Shown here one piece after another: positions 3 through 36,805 of a DNA stretch of 53,541 bases. Source of the DNA: Terriglobia bacterium (GTDB taxonomy: Bacteria > Acidobacteriota > Vicinamibacteria > Vicinamibacterales > CAVVIG01). Under the pieces are notes generated by a model. The model searched no databases, was not told the DNA's origin, and saw only the letters and a program-made list of their open reading frames with translations. Where the stretch lies: NCBI GenBank assembly GCA_020073005.1, contig JAIQFX010000025.1, positions 1 to 53,541 on the forward strand. The letters run 5' to 3'. The position numbers were made by a program, and so were the translations under genes. The number at the start of each line of letters is the position of its first letter. Positions within the stretch are counted from its first letter, which is position 1.

Positions 3-812
3 GTTGGCAGTCGCGTTCCTAGCCTGACGCCCTGGCGGACGGCAGATACGGTCCGCAACGCGTGGACGCTGCTGTCCGGCATCCTCGAGACGGCGGTCGA
101 GTACGGCTACCTCACGATGAATCCTGCGCGCGGAGTGAAGTTCCCGCAGCAGGCTGCTCGTGAAGCGCCGGCGATCATCGCCGACGACGACTTCGCGAAG
201 CTTCTGAACGAAGTCGACGAGCCATATCGGACGATGGTCGAGCTGATCGCAGCAACCGGGCTGAGGATCGGCGAGCTGCTGGCGGTTCGGTGGCGTGCGC
301 TCGATCTGGAAGTCGGAACGCTGGCGGTTCGGGAGTCGGTGTATGAGGGCAAGTTCCAGCGGCCGAAGACGCACAAGTCGCGGCGGACGATTCCGCTGGG
401 ACCGCATGCGATCACATCGCTGAAAGAACATCGCGATCGATCGACGCGCAAGAGCGACGACGATCTGGTGTTCCCGAACAAGTCCGGCGAACCTCTCCGC
501 GAATCGAAGCTGCTGGAGCGCGTGCTACAACCGGCGGCGGAGCGTGCGGGGCTCGGGCGCGTGACGTGGCATCAGTTCCGCCACATTCATTCGTCGCTGC
601 TCAACGATCTGCGCGTGCCGGTGAAGATCGCGCAAGAGCAACTCGGGCACGCGAGCATCCAGACGACGCTCAACATCTACACGCACGTCGTCGACGCCTC
701 GCACCGCGCGGCGATCGAACAGCTCGAACAGCAGTTGTTCCCAACTGTTCCCAAGTCGCAGAAAGCGGACACTCCGCCCGAATCGCTAAGTGTCAGGAAA
801 CGTGCTGGTTAG
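3..812 (+). CDS. Tyrosine recombinase / phage-type integrase (5' end outside window)
   Basis: The reading frame is open from the window edge, so the N-terminal part is missing; about 269 residues are visible. It is the C-terminal catalytic domain of a tyrosine recombinase, which cuts and rejoins DNA at att sites. The catalytic set is complete: Arg in TGLRIGELLAVRW, a Lys in the KTHKSRRTIPL hairpin, HQFRH (H-x-x-R), LGHASIQTT and the nucleophile Tyr in LNIYTHV. The visible start of the frame looks like the end of the SAM-like core-binding domain. The stop codon (TAG) lies three bases before the 3' end of a tRNA-Cys gene. That is the usual place for an integrase of an element inserted at a tRNA 3' end, so the element probably extends leftwards. 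The domain is secure; the specific element type is unknown. Confidence 0.93.
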   Translation, partial: VGSRVPSLTPWRTADTVRNAWTLLSGILETAVEYGYLTMNPARGVKFPQQAAREAPAIIADDDFAKLLNEVDEPYRTMVELIAATGLRIGELLAVRWRALDLEVGTLAVRESVYEGKFQRPKTHKSRRTIPLGPHAITSLKEHRDRSTRKSDDDLVFPNKSGEPLRESKLLERVLQPAAERAGLGRVTWHQFRHIHSSLLNDLRVPVKIAQEQLGHASIQTTLNIYTHVVDASHRAAIEQLEQQLFPTVPKSQKADTPPESLSVRKRAG

Positions 813-815
813 AAG

Positions 816-889
816 TGGAGGCGCCGCCCGGATTTGAACCGGGGGTGGAGGTTTTGCAGACCTCTGCCTTACCTCTTGGCGACGGCGCC
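816..889 (-). tRNA. tRNA-Cys (GCA)
   Basis: On the minus strand the sequence folds as a 74-nt cloverleaf. The 7-bp acceptor is GGCGCCG/CGGCGCC, the anticodon loop carries GCA, and the T loop reads TTCAAAT. The discriminator is U73, the CysRS identity base, and the CCA end is encoded. Its 3' end faces the integrase stop codon, three bases away, which makes this tRNA a likely attachment site. Confidence 0.97.
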
Positions 890-980
890 CCTTGGAGTGC
901 CTAAACGACTCGCGGCCCGCTGGGGGCCGCGTTCATCGATCCGAGCGTGCCGCGGGGCGCGGGGGCCCCGCGAGAAAAAT
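890..980. other. Spacer between two tRNA genes
   Basis: About 90 bases of G/C-rich sequence separate tRNA-Cys and tRNA-Gly. It contains G/C-rich inverted segments but no recognisable gene. The two tRNAs point the same way and could be one transcription unit running leftwards from tRNA-Gly. Confidence 0.5.
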
Positions 981-1055
981 TGGAGCGGGAAACGGGATTC
1001 GAACCCGCGACTTCGACCTTGGCAAGGTCGCACTCTACCACTGAGTTATTCCCGC
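981..1055 (-). tRNA. tRNA-Gly (GCC)
   Basis: The minus strand gives a 75-nt cloverleaf with acceptor GCGGGAA, D loop CAGTGGTAGAG, anticodon GCC in the loop TTGCCAA, T loop TTCGAAT, discriminator A/U-type end and an encoded CCA. It lies upstream of tRNA-Cys in the same orientation. Confidence 0.97.
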
Positions 1056-1100
1056 CCGAACGCCCAAAGTACCACAGGCGCCGCATAACGTTCAAGCGCC

Positions 1101-1125
1101 GCTCGCCTAAAAGGCTCGCGCTACA
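1101..1125 (-). repeat. Mini-hairpin element, TGTAGCG class
   Basis: A 25-nt intergenic element. On the minus strand it starts TGTAGCG and continues as GCGAGCC-TTTTA-GGCGAGC, a short stem interrupted by tandem G-A mismatches. The same 25 nt, with one mismatch, occur in frame inside comEC at 10955-10979. The TGTAGCG head recurs at 42168-42190 with a different stem. Confidence 0.75.
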
Positions 1126-1137
1126 CGTCCGACGCGT

Positions 1138-2133
1138 CTACAACTTCACCGCGCGCAGCGCCTCCGCCGCCTCCTCGGGCGATACGGGATTGATGTAGAA
1201 CCCGGTCCCCCACTCGAATCCCGCCACGCGCTGGATCTTCGGCACGATCTCGACGTGCCAGTGCCACGCGTCGCGCAGGTCCTCGTCGCTCGGCGCCGTG
1301 TAGATGATCAAATTGTATGGCGGCCGCTCCAGCGCGCGATCGATCCGCGACAACGCCGACTTCAGCGCCCGCGCCAGACTCGGATACGCGGCCTGCGCGT
1401 CCTCGAACCGCGGCCCGTGCTGCTTCGGCAGCAGCCACGTCTCGAACGCGAACCGCGCCGCGTACGGCGCGATCGCGACGACATCCCCATCGTCCTGGAC
1501 CAGGCGCCGGCCGTCGGTCAATTCCTGATGCAGGATGTCGCAGTACACGCACCGCTGCTTGACGTCGAAATGCCGGCGCGCCCCGTCGATCTGCGCGCGC
1601 ACGAAGTCCGGCACGATCGGCAGCGCGATGAGCTGCGAGTGCGGATGCGAGAGCGTCGCGCCGGCGCCCGCGCCGTGATTCTTGAAGCCGAGCATGTACT
1701 TCAATCGGACATCGCGCTTGAGATCGACGATGCGCTCGCGGAAGGCGCCGAGCACCCGCTCGATCTCCGCTTCGCTCATCGTCGCCAGCGACTTCTCGTG
1801 ATCCGGCGTCTCGATGATCACCTCGTGCGCGCCGATGCCGTTCATGCGGTCGAACATGCCCTCGCCCTGCGGATCGAGCGTGCCCTCGACGCGCAGCGCG
1901 GGAAACCGGTTCGGCACGACGCGCAGGTCCCAGCCCGGTGTGTCGGGCGCGCTGCCGTGACGGTACCCGCGGATCTCGGGCGGCGTCATGGATTCATGGC
2001 CCGGACAGAAGGGACAGTGCTCGCGGCCCAGGATCGCCGGCGCAACGATGTTGAAGTCGCTCGGCCGCTTCTGGCGTTCGGCGGAGACGATGACCCAGCG
2101 GGAGGTGACGGGATCTTTTCGAAGATCTGCCAA
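1138..2133 (-). CDS. galT: Galactose-1-phosphate uridylyltransferase
   Basis: 331 residues, the normal length for GalT. The enzyme moves UMP between UDP-glucose and galactose-1-phosphate in the Leloir pathway and acts in the cytoplasm. Visible hallmarks are the N-terminal zinc-site CPFC near residue 40 and the active-site HPHSQ motif around residue 163 (HIT-superfamily nucleophilic His). CVYC and the HWHVEI histidines lie near the C-terminus. The start MADLRKDPVTSRWV matches the usual N-terminus. The stop is TAG. It lies 30 bases downstream of yraN on the same strand, separated by an A-rich repeat, so co-transcription is plausible. No other galactose genes are nearby. Relatives in this superfamily can accept other nucleotidyl-sugar substrates, so specificity is inferred. 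Confidence 0.92.
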   Translation of the reverse strand: MADLRKDPVTSRWVIVSAERQKRPSDFNIVAPAILGREHCPFCPGHESMTPPEIRGYRHGSAPDTPGWDLRVVPNRFPALRVEGTLDPQGEGMFDRMNGIGAHEVIIETPDHEKSLATMSEAEIERVLGAFRERIVDLKRDVRLKYMLGFKNHGAGAGATLSHPHSQLIALPIVPDFVRAQIDGARRHFDVKQRCVYCDILHQELTDGRRLVQDDGDVVAIAPYAARFAFETWLLPKQHGPRFEDAQAAYPSLARALKSALSRIDRALERPPYNLIIYTAPSDEDLRDAWHWHVEIVPKIQRVAGFEWGTGFYINPVSPEEAAEALRAVKL

Positions 2134-2168
2134 AGTTAAAACGTAAAAGTGAAAACCTGAAAGTTAAG
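2132..2168. repeat. Short-period repeat, AAAGTGAAAACTG class
   Basis: The gap between galT and yraN is made of AAAAGTGAAAACCTGAAAG-like units. Related stretches lie at 15938-15975 and 29908-30010, always at gene ends. Confidence 0.6.
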
Positions 2169-2535
2169 AGTCACACGCGTCAAACGCGTTCTTGAACACT
2201 TCGATCACGGGCGCGCCCGAGTCGAAATGAATCGACACGACGTCGAAGCGGCACGGGCACTCCGGCACGTGCTGGCGCGCGAGGTAGTCCTGCGCGAGGC
2301 GCGTGATCCGGCGGCGCTTGAGCGGCGTCACGGCTTCCGCGCCGTCGCCGAACTCGCGCCCCTCCCGCGCCTTCACTTCCACGAACACCAGCGTCGGGCC
2401 ATCACGCGCGACGATATCAATTTCTCCACGCGGCGTGCGGTAGCGCCTGGCAATAATTGCGTACCCGCGGCGCTCGAGCTCGCGACACGCGAGATCTTCG
2501 CCTGTTTTGCCCAGTTCGATTCTGGCGTGCGTCAT
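2164..2535 (-). CDS. yraN: YraN/UPF0102 family nuclease-like protein
   Basis: 123 residues when read from the ATG beginning MTHARIELGKTGED. The frame is open 15 codons further upstream, but that part overlaps a repeat and is not family-like. The fold is PD-(D/E)XK: RTPRGEIDIVARDG followed by LVFVEVKAR supplies the GEID and ExK residues. The C-terminal IEVFKNAFDA is also typical. The family is widespread and resembles Holliday-junction resolvases, but its function is not established. It lies between an aminotransferase and galT on the same strand. Confidence 0.9.
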   Translation of the reverse strand: MTHARIELGKTGEDLACRELERRGYAIIARRYRTPRGEIDIVARDGPTLVFVEVKAREGREFGDGAEAVTPLKRRRITRLAQDYLARQHVPECPCRFDVVSIHFDSGAPVIEVFKNAFDACDS

Positions 2536-2578
2536 GCGGCGAAACGAGTGCAATCCGCACGCCACTGCCGCGACGATC

Positions 2579-2643
2579 AACGCAGAAACCGCAGAACACG
2601 CAGAGCGAAACCCATCTTCTGCGGGTTCCGCGAGTTCTGCGTT
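2579..2643. repeat. Inverted short-period repeat, ACGCAGA class
   Basis: Two 26-nt arms, 2579-2604 and 2618-2643, are complementary at 22 of 26 positions and are built from ACGCAGA/CCGCAGA units. The right arm runs up to the stop codon of the aminotransferase gene. A cousin of this element is translated inside comEC (10137-10203). Confidence 0.8.
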
Positions 2644-3971
2644 TACCGTCGTGAGTCTACGTCGGTCAGTGCCTCGTCGAACAGCCTCACCGCCGTGTCC
2701 GCCTGCTCTTTCGTCAGCACGAGCGGCGGCGAGAAGCGGATCGCGTTCTTGCCCGCGCCTAACACGAGCAGTCCTTTACTGAACGCCGCCTTGACGACCG
2801 CGTCGCGCTCGGTCGTCGCGCGCTCCTTCGTCTGCCGATCGCGCACGAGCTCGACGCCGATCATCAGCCCGCGTCCGCGCACGTCGCCAATCAGCGGGTG
2901 CTTCGCGGCCAGCGCCTTCAATCCATCCATCAACCTGGTGCCGACCGTCGCCGCGTTCGCGACGAGCTGTTCCTTCAGCAGCGTGATCGTCGCCAGCGCC
3001 GCGGCGCAGGCGACCGGATTGCCGCCAAACGTGCTCGCGTGCGCGCCCGGCGGCCACGTCATCAGCTCGCTCCGCGCGACGGCGACGCCGAGCGGGAGGC
3101 CCGACGCGATCCCCTTCGCGATCGCGACGATGTCCGGCTCGACGTTCACGTGCTCGATGGCGAACATCTTTCCCGACCGCCCCATGCCCGACTGCACTTC
3201 GTCGACGACGAGCAGCATGCCGTGCGTCTTCGTCAGCGCGCGCAGCCGCTGCAGGAACTGATCCGGCGGCACGATGTAGCCGCCCTCACCCTGAATCGGT
3301 TCGACGACGACGGCCGCCACAGAATCCGGCGACACGAGCTGCAAGAGCATCTGGTTCTCGATCACGTCCAGACACTCGGCCGCGCACGTCTCCGGCTTCA
3401 GTCCGAGCGAACAGCGGTAGCAGTCCGCGTACGGCGCGTGAAACACGCCGGGCAGCAGCGGCCCGAATCCGCGGCGCTGCACCGCCTTGCTCGCCGTCAG
3501 CGACAGCGACCCCATCGTCCGGCCGTGGAATCCGCCGAGGAACGCGATGAAGTTCTGCCGGCCGGTCGCGTAGCGCGCGAGCTTCAGGCACGCTTCGATC
3601 GCTTCGGTGCCCGAGTTGCCGAAGAAGGACTTCACGGGGCCGCGCATCGGCGCGATCGTCGCCAGTTCTTCGGCGAGGCGGACCTGGAGGTCGTAATAGA
3701 AGTCGGTTCCCGACATGTGGAGGAACCGCTGCGCCTGGTCCGTGATCGCGCGGACGACGTCGGGGTGCGAATGGCCGGTGGAGTTGACGGCGATGCCGGC
3801 CGCGCAGTCGAGGAAGACGTTGCCGTCGACGTCCTCGACGGTCGCGCCCGACCCGCGCTCGATGACGAGCGGATAGCCGCGGGTGTAGGACGGGGAGACC
3901 ACCGCCGCATCGCGCTCGATGATGGCTTTGGCTTTCGGGCCAGGAAGAGACGTTCGAATTGAGGGGACCAT
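2643..3971 (-). CDS. Class III (acetylornithine/GABA-type) PLP aminotransferase
   Basis: 442 residues. This is a pyridoxal-phosphate enzyme of the AGAT-II subgroup that includes acetylornithine, ornithine and 4-aminobutyrate aminotransferases. The cofactor region is clear: FFGNSGTEAIEACLKLAR (phosphate site), GGFHGRTMGSLS, VVVEPIQGEGGY, VVDEVQSGMGRSGKMFA and AIAKGIASGLPLG with the Schiff-base Lys. Substrate cannot be read from sequence. The closest general group, long proteins with a CYRCSLG segment, includes archaeal-type enzymes, some of which act as amino-acid racemases. It is followed on the same strand by yraN. The stop abuts a hairpin repeat. Confidence 0.88.
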   Translation of the reverse strand: MVPSIRTSLPGPKAKAIIERDAAVVSPSYTRGYPLVIERGSGATVEDVDGNVFLDCAAGIAVNSTGHSHPDVVRAITDQAQRFLHMSGTDFYYDLQVRLAEELATIAPMRGPVKSFFGNSGTEAIEACLKLARYATGRQNFIAFLGGFHGRTMGSLSLTASKAVQRRGFGPLLPGVFHAPYADCYRCSLGLKPETCAAECLDVIENQMLLQLVSPDSVAAVVVEPIQGEGGYIVPPDQFLQRLRALTKTHGMLLVVDEVQSGMGRSGKMFAIEHVNVEPDIVAIAKGIASGLPLGVAVARSELMTWPPGAHASTFGGNPVACAAALATITLLKEQLVANAATVGTRLMDGLKALAAKHPLIGDVRGRGLMIGVELVRDRQTKERATTERDAVVKAAFSKGLLVLGAGKNAIRFSPPLVLTKEQADTAVRLFDEALTDVDSRR

Positions 3972-4021
3972 AAAGTCAGAAGGAAGAAGGTGGAACCTTC
4001 TGCCTTTTTCATTCTTCCTTC
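3972..4021. repeat. Inverted A/T-rich repeat between genes
   Basis: The gap between the aminotransferase and cysS is an imperfect inverted repeat. AGAAGGAAGAAGG pairs with CATTCTTCCTTCCT, and there is an inner AGAAGGTGGAACCTTCT-type dyad. It may act as a terminator for cysS transcription on the minus strand. Confidence 0.5.
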
Positions 4022-5443
4022 CTATTTTCTCTTCCAGCGCGTAGCGCCAGCACTATCTTCCAGCAGCACGCCGCGTGCGGCCAGGTCGTTGCGGATACCG
4101 TCGGCGGCGGCGAAGTCGCGCCGGCGTCTGGCGGCGTGACGTTCCTCGATCAGCCGATCGATCTCCTCCACCGCCACCGGCGGCCGGTCGTCCTCGGCCT
4201 GGCGCAGGCTCAGCACGCCGAGCACGGCGTCGAACTTCGCGAACGCGTCGCGAATGCCGGGCACATCTCCCGTGCCGAGCTGATTCGCGTCGATGGCCGA
4301 GTTGAGGAACCGCACGAGCTCGAAGATCGCGCCGAGCGCCGCCGCGGTGTTCAGGTCGTCCTGCATCGCGTCGGAGAACTCCTTGCGGGCCTGGTCGACG
4401 CGCGCGGTCACGTCGGCGTGCATGCCCTCGCGGGTCACGGCGCCGAGCCGCGCGAGGAAATCCGTCAGCCGGCGCAGCGACTCTTCCATCGCCGCGAGGC
4501 TGTCCCAGGTGAAGTTCAGCTGCTTGCGGTAGTGCGCCGAGAGCAGCAGCAGGCGCACCGCGGACGGCCGGAAGCCCTTCGCGGCGACGTCCGGGATCGT
4601 GTACGTGTTGCCGAGCGACTTGGACATCTTCTGCTCGTCGACGATCAAGTACTCGACGTGCATCCAGTAGCGGGAGAACGGCTTCCCTGTCGCGCCTTCG
4701 CTCTGCGCGATTTCGTTTTCGTGGTGCGGGAAGATCAGATCGATGCCGCCGGCGTGGATGTCGATCGGCGGCTGGCCGAGCAGCCGCAGCGCCATCGCCG
4801 AGCACTCGATGTGCCAGCCGGGCCGGCCCGGCGTCACGCCCTGCTGTGGGAATTCCCACGAGGGCTCGCCGTCGCGATGCCCTTTCCAGAGCACGAAATC
4901 GCGCGCGTCTTCCTTCGCGTAGTTGTCGGAATCGACGCGGGCGCCGGGCTTCATGCCCTCGGTATCGAGCCGCGCGAGCTGGCCGTACTTCGGCAGCGTC
5001 GAGATCTTGAAGTAGATCGATCCGTCGCTGCGATACGTGTGACCGTTCTTGTCCAGCGCCGCGATCATCGAGGCCATCGCCTGCAGGTTCGCCTCGTCGG
5101 TGGCGCGCGGCGTTTCCTCCGCCGGCTCGAGGCCGAGCGCGCGCGCGTCCTCGCGGAACGCGGTGATGTACTGATCGGTGTAGGCGCGCAGATCCATGCC
5201 GGCCTTCGCCGCGCCGGCAATCGTGCGGTCGTCCACGTCCGTGAAGTTGACGACCTGCTTCACGCGATACCCGAGCAGATACTTCAGCGTCCGCCGGAGC
5301 ACGTCGACGCACACGAACGTGCGGAAATTGCCGATGTGGCCGCGCGCGTAGACCGTCAGCCCGCACGTGTACATGCGGACGGTGTTGTCGGGGCCCGGCG
5401 AGAACGGTTCCTCGCTCCGAGTCAGGGTGTTGTAGAGACGCAT
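4022..5443 (-). CDS. cysS: Cysteinyl-tRNA synthetase
   Basis: 473 residues, typical for CysRS, which charges tRNA-Cys with cysteine in the cytoplasm. Class I signatures are present. MYTCGLTVYARGHIGNFRTF includes the zinc Cys and the HIGH-like HIGN. GWHIECSAMA and HHENEIAQSEG hold further zinc ligands. KMSKSLGN is the second signature loop. The C-terminal DALR-type helical region is present. The start MRLYNTLTRSEEPF is canonical. It sits downstream of ribF and a small gene on the same strand. Confidence 0.96.
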   Translation of the reverse strand: MRLYNTLTRSEEPFSPGPDNTVRMYTCGLTVYARGHIGNFRTFVCVDVLRRTLKYLLGYRVKQVVNFTDVDDRTIAGAAKAGMDLRAYTDQYITAFREDARALGLEPAEETPRATDEANLQAMASMIAALDKNGHTYRSDGSIYFKISTLPKYGQLARLDTEGMKPGARVDSDNYAKEDARDFVLWKGHRDGEPSWEFPQQGVTPGRPGWHIECSAMALRLLGQPPIDIHAGGIDLIFPHHENEIAQSEGATGKPFSRYWMHVEYLIVDEQKMSKSLGNTYTIPDVAAKGFRPSAVRLLLLSAHYRKQLNFTWDSLAAMEESLRRLTDFLARLGAVTREGMHADVTARVDQARKEFSDAMQDDLNTAAALGAIFELVRFLNSAIDANQLGTGDVPGIRDAFAKFDAVLGVLSLRQAEDDRPPVAVEEIDRLIEERHAARRRRDFAAADGIRNDLAARGVLLEDSAGATRWKRK

Positions 5444-5451
5444 CGAGTTAG

Positions 5452-5485
5452 TGTGGCCGGTCGAAAGGACCCCTTACGTTACTAC
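5452..5485. repeat. Degenerate GGGGTCC hairpin element
   Basis: The 54-base gap upstream of cysS contains, on the minus strand, GTAACGTAAGGGGTCC followed by TTTCGACCGG. It resembles a decayed copy of the GGGTCC palindromes at 7388-7408 and 42168-42190. Confidence 0.35.
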
Positions 5486-5497
5486 GAGATGTTGATC

Positions 5498-5782
5498 TCA
5501 GGGCAGCGGGCGCGAGGTGCGCCACGCAGCGGCGCCCGCGAAGCCGATCGCGATCTCGAGCTGGCCGTCGCGGGCCTGGAACCGGACATCGCAGCGGCGC
5601 TTCCCGTCGGCCGCGCCCTTGGCGAGCACGGTCCGGAGCGCGCCCGACAACTCGTCGACGGCCGACGGCGCGAAACTGACGTGCGCGAGCACGGCCTGGA
5701 TGAGGTCCTTCAGCAGATCGTCGAACGGCGTTTCGTCGGACAGTTCAAGCGCGAACAGAAACTCGTGGTCGGGCACGGGCAA
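5498..5782 (-). CDS. Small conserved-looking protein of unknown function
   Basis: 94 residues, MPVPDHEFLFALELSDETPFDDLLKD onward. I do not recognise the family. The predicted pattern is two beta strands around a long helix (PSAVDELSGALRTVLAKGAADGK) followed by strands (RCDVRFQARDGQLEIAIGFAG). This resembles the first half of a GHKL/anti-sigma ATPase fold, but no ATP-binding box is present, so that similarity may be superficial. It starts three bases after the ribF stop codon and precedes cysS by about 55 bases, which suggests it is co-transcribed with ribF. Confidence 0.6.
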   Translation of the reverse strand: MPVPDHEFLFALELSDETPFDDLLKDLIQAVLAHVSFAPSAVDELSGALRTVLAKGAADGKRRCDVRFQARDGQLEIAIGFAGAAAWRTSRPLP

Positions 5783-5785
5783 ATT

Positions 5786-6724
5786 CTACAGTGAAAGGCG
5801 GCTGAACAATAGGCGGGCGCGCTGGCAATCCGCGTCGATTTGGGCGCGCAGCGCGTCGAGCGACTCGAACGCCCGCTCGTCGCGCAGGCGCTGGATGAAG
5901 CTGACGCGCAGCGACGCCCCGTACAGGTCGCGGTCCAGGTCGAAGATGTGGGTCTCGACGCTCGTCCGGCCCGACGTATCGACCGTCGGGCGGGTGCCCA
6001 CGTTCGTAATCGACGCCCGCACGACGTGCGCCACGCGCGTCGTCGTCGCGTACACGCCGTTCGGCGGCAGCAGTTCGTTCTCGGTGCACAGATTCGCGGT
6101 CGGAAAGCCGAGCGTCCTCCCCCGCTGGTCGCCGCGGACGACGGTGCCGTCGATCGCGTACTGGTGGCCGAGCAGCGCGCCGGCTTCGTCGACGCGCCCT
6201 TCGCTCACGAGCCGGCGGATGCGCGTGCTGCTGACGACGAAGTCCTTGTAGCGGACGGGATCGATCTTCTCGGCCTTGAACCCGTACTGCGCGCCGAGCA
6301 TGCGCAGGAGCGAGAAGTTGCCGCTGCGGTCGTGGCCGAAGAGAAAGTTCGCGCCCACCCAGACCTCGGCGACGTGCAGCCAGTCGACGAGGACCGTGCG
6401 GACGAACATCTCCGGATCCCAGCGCGAGAGCTCAGGCGTGAAGCGGACAATCGCCGCGCCGTACACGCCGGCGTCGGCGAACGCTTCGAGCTTCTGCGCC
6501 TTGGTCATCAGGAGCGGCGGCGCCTTGTCCGGGCGCACGACGCGGGGCGGATGCGGATCGAAGGTCATGACGACCGGCGTCGCGCCGCGTTCGTTCGCCA
6601 CGCGCTGCAGGCGGTCGAGGATCTTGCGGTGGCCACGGTGCACGCCGTCGAAATTGCCGAGCGCGAGGACCGGGCTCACCCAGCGCGAGGGCCGCGGATC
6701 GTCAGGGAAGTGGATGATGTCCAC
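5786..6724 (-). CDS. ribF: Bifunctional riboflavin kinase / FAD synthetase
   Basis: 312 residues with a GTG start. The N-terminal half is the FMN adenylyltransferase: ALGNFDGVHRGHRKIL carries the nucleotidyl-transferase HxGH-like motif, followed by NFLFGHDRSGN and SSTRIRRLVSEG. The C-terminal half is the flavokinase: RGRTLGFPTANL, NGVYAT and TSVETHIFDLDRDLYG. The protein turns riboflavin into FMN and then FAD. The GTG start shares one base with the TAG stop of the preceding gene (TAGTG), so the two are probably translationally coupled. Confidence 0.95.
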   Translation of the reverse strand: MDIIHFPDDPRPSRWVSPVLALGNFDGVHRGHRKILDRLQRVANERGATPVVMTFDPHPPRVVRPDKAPPLLMTKAQKLEAFADAGVYGAAIVRFTPELSRWDPEMFVRTVLVDWLHVAEVWVGANFLFGHDRSGNFSLLRMLGAQYGFKAEKIDPVRYKDFVVSSTRIRRLVSEGRVDEAGALLGHQYAIDGTVVRGDQRGRTLGFPTANLCTENELLPPNGVYATTTRVAHVVRASITNVGTRPTVDTSGRTSVETHIFDLDRDLYGASLRVSFIQRLRDERAFESLDALRAQIDADCQRARLLFSRLSL

Positions 6725-31987: not shown

Positions 31988-32002
31988 GCGCGCGACGAAT
32001 CG

Positions 32003-32082
32003 GGTGATTGAGTAGTTGGGTAATTGTGTAATCGAGCGACGGCGCTCGCAGCGATTACCCAACTACCAAATTACTCAAGGGG
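32003..32082. repeat. Inverted short-period repeat, AATTACCCAACTA class
   Basis: GATTGAGTAGTTGGGTAATT in the left part is complementary to GATTACCCAACTACCAAATT in the right part. Similar words occur at 36779-36805 and 43050-43085. The element follows the kinase stop and ends at the left edge of the lower-GC island. Confidence 0.8.
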
Positions 32083-32221
32083 ATTGGCGCGATTACAAAC
32101 CCAATAGGGTCGCGCCGTGAGTAACCGTCGCCCTTTACGGCGTTTCCCACGACGACGCCAGAAAACCACTACATCTTGTACCGTACTCGACAAGGGGCCG
32201 TCCGCCGAAAAGTCTGGCGGC

Positions 32222-33850
32222 ATGAACCGCTTGTTCTGCGGCGACAACCTCGACGTACTCCGCAAGGAGATCGCGCCCGAGTCCGTTGATCTCGTCTATC
32301 TCGATCCGCCCTTCAATAGCGACCAAACCTTCAATGTAATTTATTCCGAGCATGGCCGAAAGGCAAAGGCTCAAGAACGAGTTTTTGAGGACACTTGGGT
32401 CTGGGAGCAACCCGCTAAAGATGCCTTTCAAGAGGTCGTGCAAAACGGCGGACCAATAGCCGATGCCCTACGTGCGTTCTTTGCTTTCCTTGGTCCCGTA
32501 CCGATGATGGCGTATCTCGCGATGATGGCTCCGCGCCTAACCGAACTTCATCGAGTCCTGAAGCGCACCGGCACGTTGTATCTACACTGTGACCCAAACG
32601 CGAGTCACTACCTGAAACCCGTGCTCGATGCGGTGTTCGGCCATGAGAATTTCGCTAATGAAATCATCTGGCGTCGGACAACCACTAAGAACGATTACAA
32701 GCAGGGCGCTGTTAACTGGCCGCGCGTGCATGACGTGCTCCTCATGTACCACCGCTCTACTTCTGCGGCCCGCGCCGCGAAGCGTTTTCAGCAACCGTTT
32801 GCTCCATATGACGAGCATTATCTTGAGACGTTCTACACGTTTAAGGACCCAGACGGGCGGCGTTACCGACTGTCAGATTTGACCGCGCCAGGCCAAGGTT
32901 CGCGGGGCCATCCGAAATATGACTTCCTCGGAGTGACGCGTTACTGGCGCTACAACAAGGAAAAGATGGAACAACTCCACAAGAAGGGTCTTGTTGAGTT
33001 TCGGCCTACAGGGAAAGTGCCGTTTCGGAAGGTGTACCTCGATGAAATGCCGGGCGTGGCCATCGGCGACGTGTGGACCGATATTCGAGGAATGAACAAT
33101 CTTGGAAAGGAGATGCTCGGCTATCCCACTCAGAAGCCGGAGGCCCTCCTCGAGCGCATCATCACGGCGAGCACCAAGAAGGGCGACATGGTGCTTGATC
33201 CATTTTGCGGCTGCGGTACTGCGGTGTCTGTAGCGCAGCGGCTTGAACGTGACTGGATCGGGATCGATATTGCGAAGCTAGCGATTGGTGTCATTCGCGG
33301 GCGCCTTCACAACCAAGGTGTTGACGCTGGCTATGAGGCGAAATGGCTCCCGGCAACGGAAGATGAAGCCGCCGCGCTCGCCGATGAAGATCCTTTCGGT
33401 TTTCAGTGCTGGATTCTTGGGCATCTTGGCATCAACCCGCTGTACCAAAAACGCGGCGCGGATCGTGGCATCGATGGACGATTGTTCTTTTTTGACGGCC
33501 CAGATACAGGCAGACCGCGTCAGATAGTGTTTTCCGTGAAGGGCGGCATCCTGAGTCCGGTCAACGTTCGTGAATTGGCTGGGGTGGTCCGTCGTGAACA
33601 AGCGCAGATAGGAGTGTTGGTCACTCTGCATGAACCGACTGCAGCGATGCGGAAAGAAGCTGCGACGGCCGATCATTACCGCTCACACGACGACAGCCTG
33701 TATCCAGGCCTACAGATTCTGACGGTTAAAGACGTTCTCGACGGAAAGCGTCCGCAGCAACCCAACAGCCGGACCATGACCTTCCCAGATCCCAAAATGG
33801 CAAAGGTGGGATTGGCAGCGGTACAGCAACAGCTTCTCAAGTTCGCCTAG
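32222..33850 (+). CDS. DNA methyltransferase fused to an Mrr-like nuclease domain
   Basis: 542 residues from MNRLFCGDNLDVLRKEI. A GTG at 32117 would add 35 residues with no family-like features. It is a beta-class N6-adenine or N4-cytosine methyltransferase: catalytic DPPFNS (residues about 30) comes first, then GYPTQKPEALLERII and DPFCGCGTAVSVAQRLERDWIGIDI (SAM site). The C-terminal 150 residues contain GADRGIDGRLFFFDG...RQIVFSVKGG, a PD-(D/E)XK Mrr-type core with the D...K pattern. This suggests methylation and cleavage in one chain. GC content and codon use are clearly lower than the neighbours, indicating transfer. It ends TAG. No separate restriction or specificity subunit is nearby. Confidence 0.88.
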   Translation: MNRLFCGDNLDVLRKEIAPESVDLVYLDPPFNSDQTFNVIYSEHGRKAKAQERVFEDTWVWEQPAKDAFQEVVQNGGPIADALRAFFAFLGPVPMMAYLAMMAPRLTELHRVLKRTGTLYLHCDPNASHYLKPVLDAVFGHENFANEIIWRRTTTKNDYKQGAVNWPRVHDVLLMYHRSTSAARAAKRFQQPFAPYDEHYLETFYTFKDPDGRRYRLSDLTAPGQGSRGHPKYDFLGVTRYWRYNKEKMEQLHKKGLVEFRPTGKVPFRKVYLDEMPGVAIGDVWTDIRGMNNLGKEMLGYPTQKPEALLERIITASTKKGDMVLDPFCGCGTAVSVAQRLERDWIGIDIAKLAIGVIRGRLHNQGVDAGYEAKWLPATEDEAAALADEDPFGFQCWILGHLGINPLYQKRGADRGIDGRLFFFDGPDTGRPRQIVFSVKGGILSPVNVRELAGVVRREQAQIGVLVTLHEPTAAMRKEAATADHYRSHDDSLYPGLQILTVKDVLDGKRPQQPNSRTMTFPDPKMAKVGLAAVQQQLLKFA

Positions 33851-34013: not shown

Positions 34014-35252
34014 TCACAATCCGTTCGTAGTCGGTGTCGGGAACGTGCTTGTCTTTGACCGTGGGAGTTGCTCGATCTTCATGAAGAACTCCGTATCAGT
34101 AATTTGGCTCGGCCAGTTCAGGTTGGCCCCGATCCAAAACCTAGAACGCTTCTCATCGATTTGCTCGCGCCGTACCGTGATCGCACCTAACGCGCCCAAT
34201 CGGTTGACGTCGCGCACGATTGCGGTTGATGCATTCTTCCGCGATGCATAGTAACGGGCGACCTCGTCCACAAGCTGCGACCACTCCACTTCCTGTTCAC
34301 CATCGCGCTCAAGCAATCGGTTGAGCACCATCAGTTGCCTCTTTACGATGACACGTTTCCGAGTGCTCTCTAGCCGACTAAAGAGATCGCCCATCAGGCC
34401 ACGAAAGAGTTCTTTCGATACGGCGTTCTTGACGAGATTCGTGAGGCGTTGAGTCTGAAGCGCAATTCCCTTTAGGCCAAACTTGAGAAAAGCAGTGAGA
34501 TTATGATCTCCAGCCCGCACTGCAGCGAGAGACGATAAGTAGTCCTTTTTTTCATCGTAGTAGTAGTTCGACATTGCGATAAAGAGAGAATCCTTCAAAC
34601 CTGCGCGTTGCAATGCGAGCGCTTCAAGCACGCGTGCAGTGCGCCCGTTTCCGTCAACGAATGGGTGCATCGCAGCAAAGTGGTAATGGAGGGCGAGCGC
34701 TTGAACTAGCGCGTCATGATTCCGATAGGTTGTCTTGACCTCCTCCGTGAGTTGTTGCAACGCGTCCTTGCATTCATCTCCGGCCCGTGCGCCGCGATGC
34801 TTCGGAATACCAAAGGTGACCTGATCGTCGCCGTGGCGAACAACACCAGGTTCGCAATGATCTTCATCGCAGTCCGTGATGATGATCCGATGGATGGAAC
34901 ACACCAAATCCACGTCAATCGGGTAGTCGTCAGGGATGTTCACGATCCACCGATATGCTTTGGTTGTCGCCAACGCTTGCCGCTGTGAGCGAGTGACCAG
35001 TTCTTCCGGCGTTTCAGCCTTGATCGCCGTCTCTAGTTCGTTTGCTGCGAAATCTGCCCCTTCGATTCTTGAGGAGCCACCAACCTCCATCTTTAGTTGG
35101 ATGTCTTGAATCGATTTCACCCATCTACGCTGAAAAGGGATCGCCTTCAGCGCCAGAATCGATGCCTTAGCGGTGAGGAGTTCATCGCGAATCTCGTCGT
35201 GGTCATACTTGATCCATGAGCGGGGCACTTCGTATTGAATCGCCGTATCCAT
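34014..35252 (-). CDS. Fic-domain protein (AMPylase-type) with inhibitory helix
   Basis: 412 residues from ATG at 35252; six codons more are possible. Fic enzymes transfer AMP or similar groups from a nucleotide to a hydroxyl on a target protein. The active-site loop HPFVDGNGRTARVLEAL is a full HxFx(D/E)GNGRxxR motif. An N-terminal GGSSRIEGADF matches the (S/T)xxxE(G/N) inhibitory helix, so the protein is a self-inhibited class II Fic. The C-terminal third looks like a winged helix (SQLVDEVARYYASRKNASTAIVRDVNRLGALGAITVRREQ). GC content is low relative to the chromosome. It is convergent with the methyltransferase-nuclease gene in the same island. Confidence 0.93.
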   Translation of the reverse strand: MDTAIQYEVPRSWIKYDHDEIRDELLTAKASILALKAIPFQRRWVKSIQDIQLKMEVGGSSRIEGADFAANELETAIKAETPEELVTRSQRQALATTKAYRWIVNIPDDYPIDVDLVCSIHRIIITDCDEDHCEPGVVRHGDDQVTFGIPKHRGARAGDECKDALQQLTEEVKTTYRNHDALVQALALHYHFAAMHPFVDGNGRTARVLEALALQRAGLKDSLFIAMSNYYYDEKKDYLSSLAAVRAGDHNLTAFLKFGLKGIALQTQRLTNLVKNAVSKELFRGLMGDLFSRLESTRKRVIVKRQLMVLNRLLERDGEQEVEWSQLVDEVARYYASRKNASTAIVRDVNRLGALGAITVRREQIDEKRSRFWIGANLNWPSQITDTEFFMKIEQLPRSKTSTFPTPTTNGL

Positions 35253-35261
35253 AACACCTAA

Positions 35262-35290
35262 ATCATACAAGTAATATCGCTCTTTTTGAA
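35262..35290 (-). promoter_or_regulatory. Promoter for the fic gene
   Basis: On the minus strand TTCAAA, a 17-base spacer and TATGAT (35267-35262) form a fair sigma-70 promoter. The -10 ends nine bases before the ATG at 35252, so the leader would be about two or three bases. Confidence 0.55.
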
Positions 35291-35438
35291 GCAGAAAATA
35301 ATATTGAATTACTATAAGTAACTACCGTAAATACAATAAGTTACTGAAGTTTATCTGTACATTGTGACCTATAATATTGCAAATAATTTGACAATATTCG
35401 ACTGTATTGTCTAGGATCGGTGGCGTCACAAAAGCGAA
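35291..35438. promoter_or_regulatory. AT-rich regulatory region with a promoter for the tRNA genes
   Basis: About 150 bases at roughly 30% G+C, the lowest in the window. It holds a dyad AGTAACT-N14-AGTTACT (35319-35346), a stand-alone TATAAT at 35370-35375, and a good plus-strand promoter: TTGACA 35388-35393, 18-base spacer, TAGGAT 35412-35417. That promoter would transcribe the tRNA at 35467. No gene is visible. Confidence 0.55.
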
Positions 35439-35461
35439 ACGGCCAGCTTGAGGCTGGCCGT
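35439..35461 (-). terminator. 9-bp hairpin, terminator-like on the minus strand
   Basis: ACGGCCAGC-TTGAG-GCTGGCCGT is a perfect 9-bp stem. On the minus strand it is followed by TTTCGCTTTTG, giving a weak intrinsic terminator. On the plus strand it lies between the promoter and the tRNA and could be part of the precursor. Confidence 0.5.
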
Positions 35462-35466
35462 CAATG

Positions 35467-35552
35467 GCGGGTGTGGCGAAACTGGCAAACGCAACCGGCT
35501 CTAAACCGGTCGTCCTGGTAGGGATTTGCGGGTTCGAGTCCCGCCACCCGCA
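35467..35552 (+). tRNA. Leu-type tRNA with CUA anticodon (amber suppressor)
   Basis: 86 nt with a complete class II cloverleaf. Acceptor GCGGGTG/CACCCGC has all 7 pairs. The D arm GGCGAAACTGGCAAACGC is the standard bacterial tRNA-Leu type. The anticodon stem ACCGG/CCGGT closes the loop CTCTAAA, giving anticodon CUA at 35501-35503. The long variable arm (CGTCCTGGTAGGGATTT) has a CCT/AGG stem. The T arm is GCGGG-TTCGAGT-CCCGC and the discriminator is A73. LeuRS reads A73 and the core rather than the anticodon, so leucine charging is expected and UAG would be decoded. CCA follows after one extra A. It lies in a low-GC island downstream of a promoter. Confidence 0.85.
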
Positions 35553-35635
35553 ACCATTCTATCGGCAAATGAACTACTTCACGTAGTCTTCGCTCGCTCG
35601 CCCGCCACCAGTCGTAGCCGTTTCCCATGACGGCG

Positions 35636-35704
35636 GGGGGGCGGTTGGTCCCACAGTCGGATTCTGGATTCAGACAGTGACCGGTTCGATCCCGGTGCTC
35701 TCCA
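35636..35704 (+). tRNA. tRNA-like sequence, perhaps a degenerate tRNA-Gln (CUG)
   Basis: The T arm is perfect (ACCGG-TTCGATC-CCGGT). A 7-bp acceptor GGGGGGC/GCTCTCC forms with two G-U pairs, and the discriminator is A. The anticodon loop TTCTGGA would give CUG, but its stem (TCGGA/TTCAG) has a mismatch and wobbles, and the D arm is about five bases short. I read it as a decaying or unusual tRNA-Gln-like gene accompanying the suppressor tRNA. Confidence 0.4.
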
Positions 35705-35714
35705 ATATTAGTAC

Positions 35715-35743
35715 TTGACATACCCACGTAAAACTAGTACTCT
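35715..35743 (+). promoter_or_regulatory. Transposase promoter
   Basis: A perfect -35 TTGACA (35715-35720) is followed after exactly 17 bases by TACTCT (35738-35743), seven bases before the transposase ATG. TAGTACT words (35709-35715 and 35735-35741) overlap both promoter boxes. Confidence 0.6.
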
Positions 35744-35750
35744 ACACACC

Positions 35751-36689
35751 ATGGACGGCACCTTGAATCTCTCGAAGCTGGCGAAGTACTTCAGCGATGA
35801 AGACGCGGCCCGCGCTCTCTTGGAAGACATGCGCTGGGGGAATAACCCGACGTGTCCGCATTGCGGCGGGCTGAATCCCTACAGGCTGGTCGCCCGCAAG
35901 CCGGGCGCGAAGACACGCAAGGGCCTCTGGAAGTGCAGCCAGTGCCGCAAGCAATTCACCGTGACGGTTGGCACCGTGTTCGAGGATTCACGGATTCCGA
36001 TCTCAAAGTGGCTGCTGGCGATTCACCTGATCGGCTCGTCCAAGAAGGGCATGTCCGCGCATCAGATTCACCGCAACCTCGGCATCAGCTACAAGGCCGC
36101 ATGGTTCATGATGCACCGCTTGCGCTACGCGATGCGGAGCGGGCCATTGTCGGACTTGATGAAGGGCGTTGTTGAGGTTGACGAAACCTACGTCGGGGCG
36201 CGTAACAAGCGCGGCACGAAGCGTGGACGTCCCGGCCCGGATTCACACAAGACGCCGGTTGTGGCCCTCGTAGAACGCGGCTCAGGCCGCGTCCGGGCCT
36301 TCACCATGCCCCGCGTCACCGCCGACACGCTGAGCGAAGCGATTAGCGCCAACGTCCACCCGGACGCCATGATGATGACGGACGAGTTCTCCGCGTATCA
36401 GGCCCTCGGACGTCGGAACCACCAGACCGTGAATCACTCGAAGGACGAATACGTCCGTGGCGACGTCTACACGAATACAGCGGAAGGGTTCTTCTCGCTG
36501 CTCAAGCGCGGCATCACCGGAACATTCCATCACGTCAGCCGGGGTCACTTGAACCGCTACTGTGACGAGTTTGCCTTCCGGTATGAGAACCGCCAGACCA
36601 CGGACGGCCAGCGGGCCGCGTTGCTAGTCGCCGGAGCCGAAGGCAAGCGCCTCACCTACAAGCAACCAGCAAGCCCTAGCCCGAACTGA
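35751..36689 (+). mobile_element. IS1595-family transposase
   Basis: 312 residues from ATG MDGTLNLSKLAKYFSDE. The N-terminal zinc ribbon (CPHCGG...CSQCRKQFTVTVGTVFEDS) and the ISXO2-like DDE domain are typical of IS1595. Catalytic acidic residues lie in VEVDETYVGAR, MMTDEFSAY and the NTAEGFFSLLKRGITGTFHHVS region, followed by HLNRYCDEFAFRYENR. It appears full length. Clear terminal inverted repeats could not be found on either side, so the element's ends are not set. It closes the accessory island just before ilvE. Confidence 0.9.
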
Positions 36690-36732: not shown

Positions 36733-36778
36733 CAGTTGAGACTCTGGTACGATTAAAGGGTTGGGTTTGTGAACGCGC

Positions 36779-36805
36779 TAATTGCCTTACTCAATTACCC
36801 AATAG
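36779..36805. repeat. AATTACCCAATAG repeat at the island's right edge
   Basis: TTGCCTTACTCAATTACCCAATAG-type words of the same class as 32003-32082. The 9-mer ACCCAATAG at 36797-36805 also occurs at 32099-32107, giving direct repeats at both ends of the island. Confidence 0.6.

Follow-up and report, generated by a model that had tools for sequence, protein, structure and literature searches.

A leucine-type tRNA with anticodon CUA carried by an IS1595-family transposon in an acidobacterial genome

The tRNA and the transposon around it

The window (the whole 53,541-nucleotide stretch that we analysed) is a contig rich in chromosomal housekeeping genes, and it contains a complete IS1595-family transposon in which a tRNA gene with anticodon CUA lies between a Fic gene and the transposase gene. 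The features of the region are as follows, with the evidence for each in brackets.

32071-32078, no strand: left copy of the 8-bp target site duplication TTACTCAA
32079-36786, no strand: complete IS1595-family transposon, 4,708 bp (empty site in genome G002, synteny, ends, target duplication)
32079-32106, forward strand: left terminal inverted repeat GGGGATTGGCGCGATTACAAACCCAATA (identical to the right end at 21 of 28 positions)
32117-33850, forward strand: N6/N4 DNA methyltransferase fused to an Mrr/iREase-like domain, stop TAG (Pfam, PADLOC, homologues, motif DPPF)
34014-35270, reverse strand: SoFic-type Fic protein with intact motif HPFVDGNGRTAR, stop TGA (Pfam; PADLOC SoFic, 5.4e-42)
35388-35417, forward strand: promoter-like TTGACA-18-TAGGAT upstream of the hairpin and tRNA (consensus match only)
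35439-35461, forward strand: GC-rich hairpin of 10 bp that ends 5 nt before the tRNA; its last part and the spacer are common to an element on viral contig L249
35467-35552, forward strand: tRNA of leucine and amber suppressor type, anticodon CUA, class II, A73, no encoded CCA (ARAGORN; Rfam; isotype scores; covariation in the set of CUA tRNAs)
35715-36689, forward strand: IS1595 (ISXO2-like) transposase with zinc ribbon, stop TGA (Pfam PF12762, 1.1e-41; PF12760, 1.5e-15)
36759-36786, reverse strand: right terminal inverted repeat
36787-36794, no strand: right copy of the target site duplication TTACTCAA
47556-50171, reverse strand: leucyl-tRNA synthetase of the host, encoded on the same contig and predicted to charge the tRNA (Pfam)

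ARAGORN placed a tRNA with anticodon cta at exactly 35467-35552 on the forward strand, although under the label 'tRNA-Pyl', and the Rfam tRNA model, whose cut-off is 29 bits, gave it a score of 59.4. Each of the four stems (acceptor, D, anticodon and T) is built of Watson-Crick pairs throughout, 20 in total, and CUA sits in a 7-nt anticodon loop, as in an amber suppressor. The minimum-energy fold of the bare sequence differs from the cloverleaf; unmodified tRNAs can give such a fold. A73 is followed by ACCATT, and CCA is not encoded. The pyrrolysine identity implied by the ARAGORN label was rejected because the tRNA has a long variable arm, a 5-bp anticodon stem and A73; tRNA-Pyl is described, in the accessible part of PMC7609411, as having a 3-nt variable arm, a 6-bp anticodon stem and G73.

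With the anticodon masked, the best scores of the tRNA against reference sets of 26 Leu, 4 Tyr and 10 Ser tRNAs were 105, 85 and 62, respectively. Among tRNAs of its own genome, Leu(UAA) and Leu(UAG) scored highest (95 and 93), with Tyr(GUA) third at 87.7, above the other three Leu tRNAs. In the anticodon-masked comparison with the window tRNA, one ordinary Leu(UAA) scored 105.4, as high as the best CUA tRNA at 104.0. Reading by eye in standard numbering found the Leu identity set A73, the Levitt pair A15-U48, G18G19 and A20a, as well as U8:A14 (an A. aeolicus feature) and C2-G71 (which speaks against SerRS). The elements by which LeuRS recognizes tRNA-Leu are described for Escherichia coli in PMC9976931; in the portion we could consult, the anticodon is not crucial to leucine identity, so leucine charging of the window tRNA would be expected. 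The first-pass annotation had described a class II tRNA-Leu with CUA and A73, and ARAGORN, Rfam, the paired stems and the isotype scores all bear this out: it is a tRNA-Leu body with a UAG-reading anticodon, for which leucylation and UAG reading are predicted.

The surrounding transposon is assigned to the IS1595 family by its DDE_Tnp_IS1595 transposase with zinc ribbon, its terminal inverted repeats and its 8-bp duplication; an inverted-repeat search gave 82% identity over 28 nt, with the register shifted 2 nt outward from 32079-32106. DNA matches from G002, a genome of the same genus, reach both edges of the insert and thus define an empty site, and the gene order kinase-ilvE-T2SSE is kept without the insert in nine relatives' loci. 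What had been annotated at first pass as a mobile island is one IS1595-family transposon, flanked by a target duplication and missing from the corresponding site of a relative; that empty site documents past insertion only, not present activity. A short palindromic repeat at 31997-32078, at the left edge of the insertion, has 20 partial matches elsewhere in the genome. Like ISApl4, an IS1595 element described in PMC12561309 (seen in part) with 8-bp duplications and ends starting with GGGG, the window transposon has an IS1595 transposase, GGGG-starting inverted repeats and 8-bp duplications. Unlike ISApl4, which is 712 bp long with a transposase gene, it spans 4.7 kb and carries nuclease, Fic and tRNA cargo.

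The Fic gene, a candidate defence gene, matches the SoFic profile and keeps an intact Fic motif. None of the three recognised transposon genes is interrupted by an in-frame TAG, and so the transposon does not classify as a UAG-recoded element; other TAG-containing frames of at least 40 codons were judged by eye only. We considered regulated readthrough at the TAG of the nuclease gene and rejected it, because the alignments of the nine best homologues extend to residues 545-574 of 577 and their open frames, of 541-590 codons, stop at about the same place. Less in keeping with this, two weaker nuclease homologues, L146 (genome G082) and L148 (G106), have one in-frame TAG each; the search pattern described below found no CUA tRNA in G082 or G106. 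There was no tRNA within ~1.5 kb of 16 nuclease homologues.

Promoter-like sites number two in the region against 0.8 expected from shuffles. Between the tRNA and the transposase, a stretch at about 35631-35707 looks like a 3' tRNA half with T arm and acceptor. As a second, degenerate tRNA this stretch was rejected: it had no Rfam match up to E=1 and folded no better than shuffles (z 0.50), and 35553-35720 had no BLAST match in phages or plasmids. It may be a tRNA remnant. Directly after the CUA tRNA, a small forward frame begins with ATG at 35569 and meets TAG at codon 6, and an early TAG after the tRNA also occurs in loci L080 and L062 and in some clostridial phages. A short stretch, CTTCACGTAG, is common to the window and L249; since, by our reading, it falls at the end of a small gene on the opposite strand in L249, we take the UAG-containing forward frame to be a probable artefact.

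Related CUA tRNAs in bacterial genomes and viral contigs

A search pattern combining the Leu D-arm with a CUA anticodon matched 18 times in 84,980 species genomes and three times in viral contigs, of which ARAGORN confirmed 11 and three, respectively; because the pattern fixes one D-loop length, this census is a lower bound. The seven of 21 matches in which ARAGORN found no CUA tRNA (L063, L066, L067, L068, L070, L072 and L074) were dropped. Two of these may be real: L070:1548 (Treponema) is an irregular CUA Leu-like sequence with a very long variable arm, and L066:5903-5933 on the reverse strand (Breoghania) is the 5' half only of such a sequence. Within the window's phylum, the pattern matched only the window's own genome among 396 sampled, which gives no sign that the lineage has retained the tRNA. 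BLAST with the window tRNA returned three phage and two plasmid records; among them, L081, L082 and L083 are ordinary Leu tRNAs (anticodons taa, taa and caa) and the other two are annotated as tRNA-Leu. Two more viral patterns, with six further matches, added CUA tRNAs in L245/L247 and L249; L246, L248 and L250 had no CUA tRNA. Three further viral scans gave no new CUA tRNA among the matches examined (L251-L253 share the end motif only and were left out), and the matches listed for a mismatch search were almost only ordinary Leu(CAA).

The hairpin recurs with these tRNAs. Defined as a GC-rich stem of at least 8 pairs ending within 16 nt of the tRNA, it preceded 12 of 15 CUA tRNAs and 1 of 69 other tRNAs (Fisher 5e-11; counting the five clostridial loci as one, 4.9e-8); the misses were L080 (6 pairs), L061 and L078. 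In an enlarged set, to which L249 (hairpin present), L245/L247 (absent, counted once) and 19 ordinary Leu(CAA) tRNAs (none) were added, the counts were 13 of 17 CUA tRNAs and 1 of 88 ordinary tRNAs; from these, the single ordinary tRNA of L248, which has no hairpin, is excluded. From the hairpin end through the spacer and tRNA, the window and L249 share 83 of 101 positions, a likeness beyond the tRNA that points to a module of common origin. Our guess is that the hairpin acts in processing or at an mRNA end.

Across the aligned CUA set (15 tRNAs, 14 of them distinct), 97.8% of 276 stem cells are paired and 15 of 20 pairs have changed on both sides, a result reached in none of 500 shuffles. Three bases are missing from the start of the L071 sequence in this alignment and three from the end of the L062 sequence, and gap cells were set aside; since phage tRNAs are included, this covariation speaks for the CUA set and not for the window copy alone.

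Phylogeny was inferred with the anticodon masked over ~82 positions, with L076, L077 and L079 left out. A larger tree (61 sequences) united 15 CUA tRNAs and the two UAA tRNAs of L081 and L082 in one clade (0.961), within which the window grouped with L249 (0.849), and these two with L080, L071, L073 and one plasmid Leu(UAA) (0.943). A smaller tree split the CUA tRNAs into two groups (0.887 and 0.854); the latter, consisting of the window, L073, L080, L071 and the plasmid Leu(UAA), lay nearer to ordinary Leu tRNAs with anticodons tag, gag and cag (0.76). The window tRNA stood apart from the host's own Leu(UAA) in both trees, neither of which supports an origin from that gene. We regard the evidence for horizontal spread of the CUA tRNAs as moderate, given that only ~82 positions could be compared.

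Several relatives of the window tRNA also lie in mobile elements. Locus L071 (Bryobacterales) has its CUA tRNA in an IS1-type transposon at 1131-5260 with the 8-bp duplication ACGCGCAT. L080, a 7,290-bp contig binned as Aenigmarchaeota, an archaeal bin in which it may be misplaced, has one in a transposon at 548-5956 with the 8-bp duplication CGACCGGA and with AbiEi-like and PDC-S42 genes. The L071 and L080 transposases are 44% identical and fall just below the Pfam IS1 cut-off; their plasmid relatives are annotated as IS1 family. L245/L247, one identical 4,198-bp stretch on two viral contigs, carries a CUA tRNA 22 nt after the stop of a SoFic gene (PADLOC 4.9e-47) and facing an IS1595 transposase (Pfam 2.3e-40); the transposase is 36% and the Fic protein 24% identical to those of the window. 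Element ends were looked for in this stretch and not found. The smallest carrier, L249:1451-2152, is a 702-bp element with perfect 23-nt inverted repeats and the 8-bp duplication CCCAACTG, which holds the hairpin and CUA tRNA and has no transposase match; its 5,500-bp viral contig has a terminase match below the Pfam cut-off (E 4e-4). Elsewhere, a CUA tRNA-Leu with hairpin adjoins an Ietas defence pair, both genes of which end in TAG (L069:2180-6017, equivalent to L164:9681-13518), and another adjoins type I-G CRISPR-Cas genes (L065:1150-7919).

By tblastn, four transposases had no match in loci L060, L061, L062, L064, L065, L069, L073, L075-L079 and L249. A transposase lay near the tRNA at 4 of 13 CUA loci and 0 of 64 others; since CUA loci supplied the query transposases, the comparison is in part circular, and no conclusion rests on it. 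The idea that such a tRNA is a standard part of IS1/IS1595 transposase families was discarded: there was none in nine related plasmid loci (five IS1 and four IS1595, from 29 and 464 plasmid records matched), nor any tRNA within ~1.5 kb of three further IS1-type copies in genomes G432 and G436.

How UAG may be read was examined in the five clostridial loci (L060, L064, L076, L077 and L079), which come from rumen Clostridia bins and one viral contig and all carry tRNA-Leu(CUA) together with a hairpin. We compared 57 in-frame TAG sites on the coding strand, counted per locus so that one alignment column can count more than once. Twenty-four faced TAG only; at the other 33, the facing sense codon was Leu 23 times, Gln three times, Trp, Ile and Glu twice each and Pro once. 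A looser count in all frames put 24 of 53 TAG sites opposite Leu. This clostridial phage clade thus appears, from the alignments, to read UAG as Leu; two papers on phage recoding, in the sections open to us, give UAG as Gln (PMC9523058, PMC10879173). The first-pass annotation's suggestion of a link to recoded phages holds for these relatives and not for the window copy.

Leucine tRNAs and TAG stops of the host

The genome has a complete set of ordinary tRNA-Leu genes (caa, cag, gag, taa and tag); in all, 44 tRNAs were recovered besides the CUA tRNA, compared with 45 Rfam matches. Its TAG use was sampled over 448,833 bp (8% of the genome) with a crude gene finder and compared with samples of three relatives. 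TAG ends 76 of 297 genes (25.6%) in the host and 71 of 257 in the relatives. Among 47 host cases in which coding sequence continues in the same frame after the stop, the stop is TAG in 7, TGA in 34 and TAA in 6; in the relatives, the figure for TAG is 8 of 20. There was no sign of UAG as a sense codon in the 448,833 bp. The stop and continuation counts thus argue for neither avoidance nor sense use of UAG in the host sample, and both a recent arrival of the tRNA and a weak suppressor fit this combination.

Free TAG use by the host had been claimed at first pass from genes of the window, and the eight that we checked (the integrase fragment, PhnP-like gene, mazG, hrcA, dnaJ, the methyltransferase, ilvE and the transglycosylase) all end in TAG, in agreement with the 8% sample. 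It is also the ground for the earlier view, which we share, that suppression, itself a prediction, would be weak or conditional. The same annotation also considered use of the tRNA by a phage or plasmid with recoded genes; none of the three recognised transposon genes is recoded, and the 8% sample has no excess of continuations after TAG.

Interpretation

We propose that the hairpin and tRNA-Leu(CUA) form a module carried as cargo by an IS1595-family transposon with anti-phage-type genes, that is, a mobile leucine amber suppressor, a reading to which we give a probability of about 60%. Transcription would start at the tRNA's own promoter and run through the hairpin, and the transcript would be trimmed and receive CCA. 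Host LeuRS, which does not read the anticodon, would then charge it, and leucine would be inserted at UAG against release factor 1, probably at low efficiency. The likeliest beneficiary would be the element, or the phages that it visits, by way of a portable UAG-reading tRNA, rather than host housekeeping. That such modules pass between phages and bacteria is suggested by L249, L245/L247 and the clostridial phages on the viral side. A wider proposal is that transposons of the IS1/IS1595 superfamily and transposase-less miniature elements move a UAG-reading Leu tRNA module between bacteria and phages, as a portable code modifier that is linked with anti-phage cargo (SoFic, for instance) and whose UAG reading is under selection; we offer this tentatively and think it rather less likely to be right than wrong.

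The window tRNA is probably not a chance passenger. The main rival reading is that it is a neutral hitch-hiker: taken up at some time from a phage or foreign host, the tRNA would look active but be expressed too little to matter. The single match among 396 sampled genomes of the phylum, the host's relative-like TAG use, the unencoded CCA, the cargo genes free of in-frame TAG and the nine related elements' loci that lack a tRNA would all be expected of such a passenger. Four fully paired stems, covariation across the CUA set and recurrence in several elements, one of them 702 bp long without a transposase, would not, and we consider this explanation unlikely.

A second alternative, to which we give little credence, joins the tRNA to its neighbor: the Fic protein would act, for example, on translation, and the tRNA would tune its dose or target in an addiction or abortive-infection unit. 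SoFic, the CUA tRNA and an IS1595 transposase do occur together in two elements as divergent as those of the window and L245/L247, and in L247 a mere 22 nt separate the Fic stop codon from the tRNA. Against this, L071, L080 and L249 have no Fic match, the orientation differs between the window element and L245/L247, and Fic genes are common in any case; moreover, each of the two Fic genes stops at TGA, and reading through UAG would therefore not lengthen its product. The link to defence or addiction that was drawn at first pass is accordingly suggestive in its association of genes and lacks a mechanism; even so, the recurrence of SoFic in two divergent elements is the most concrete functional lead.

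It is also conceivable, albeit improbable, that the shape of the module matters and not its anticodon, and that, in the leader of transposase or cargo transcripts, the hairpin and tRNA serve for RNase P/Z processing or for insulation. The hairpin lies at most 16 nt upstream in 13 of 17 CUA tRNAs, and in the window, L071 and L080 the transposase gene follows the tRNA on the same strand; in L245/L247, however, the two genes converge and no hairpin precedes the tRNA. CUA was a criterion of our search, and the set as such cannot judge use of the anticodon. Least probable is that UAG mutations in useful host genes have made the host dependent on the tRNA and so hold the transposon in place: there is a precedent in the Trp amber suppressor of Aeromonas salmonicida, which reportedly serves 21 genes (PMC2556355, available in part), but continuations after TAG (7 of 47 in the host sample against 8 of 20 in the relatives, by the crude gene finder) speak against it.

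The proposed mobile suppressor resembles several known systems without coinciding with any of them. Leucine-inserting amber suppressors of the laboratory E. coli supP type are derived from tRNA-Leu; like them, the window tRNA combines a class II tRNA-Leu body with a CUA anticodon, and unlike them it is natural, foreign to its host by the trees and situated inside a transposon. With the A. salmonicida suppressor it shares being a natural UAG-reading tRNA beside normal tRNA genes, there in an IS-rich genome; that suppressor is Trp rather than Leu, differs by two bases from the host tRNA-Trp, from which it is thus probably derived, and has no transposon context stated in the accessible text (PMC2556355). 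Code 15 phages likewise place a UAG-reading tRNA of a mobile entity in a standard-code host. Their own genes are recoded, with UAG as Gln, and need the tRNA, whereas the window transposon has no recognised recoded gene (PMC9523058, PMC10879173; both consulted in excerpt). In the same excerpts, theta ribozymes are described at phage suppressor tRNAs (PMC10879173). Elsewhere, an alternative-code screen gives reassignments of UGA as the known bacterial code changes (PMC8629427, in the part available), and an allo-tRNA pseudogene overlaps a transposon-related frame (PMC7609411, likewise). Judging by titles and abstract openings, with subscription journals mostly outside the search, none of the matches listed reports an IS1/IS1595 transposon with a suppressor tRNA in its cargo.

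Suppressor tRNAs have so far come from laboratory mutants, a few natural bacteria and recoded phages. If our reading is true, a suppressor carried by small transposons, once as a transposase-less element of 702 bp on a viral contig, would provide a direct route for spreading altered reading of a stop codon, and would help to explain how phages and bacteria acquire suppressor tRNAs. It would also make testable the ideas that code changes are seeded by mobile tRNAs and that translation of UAG serves as a lever for some anti-phage elements: a change in the genetic code may itself spread by transposition.
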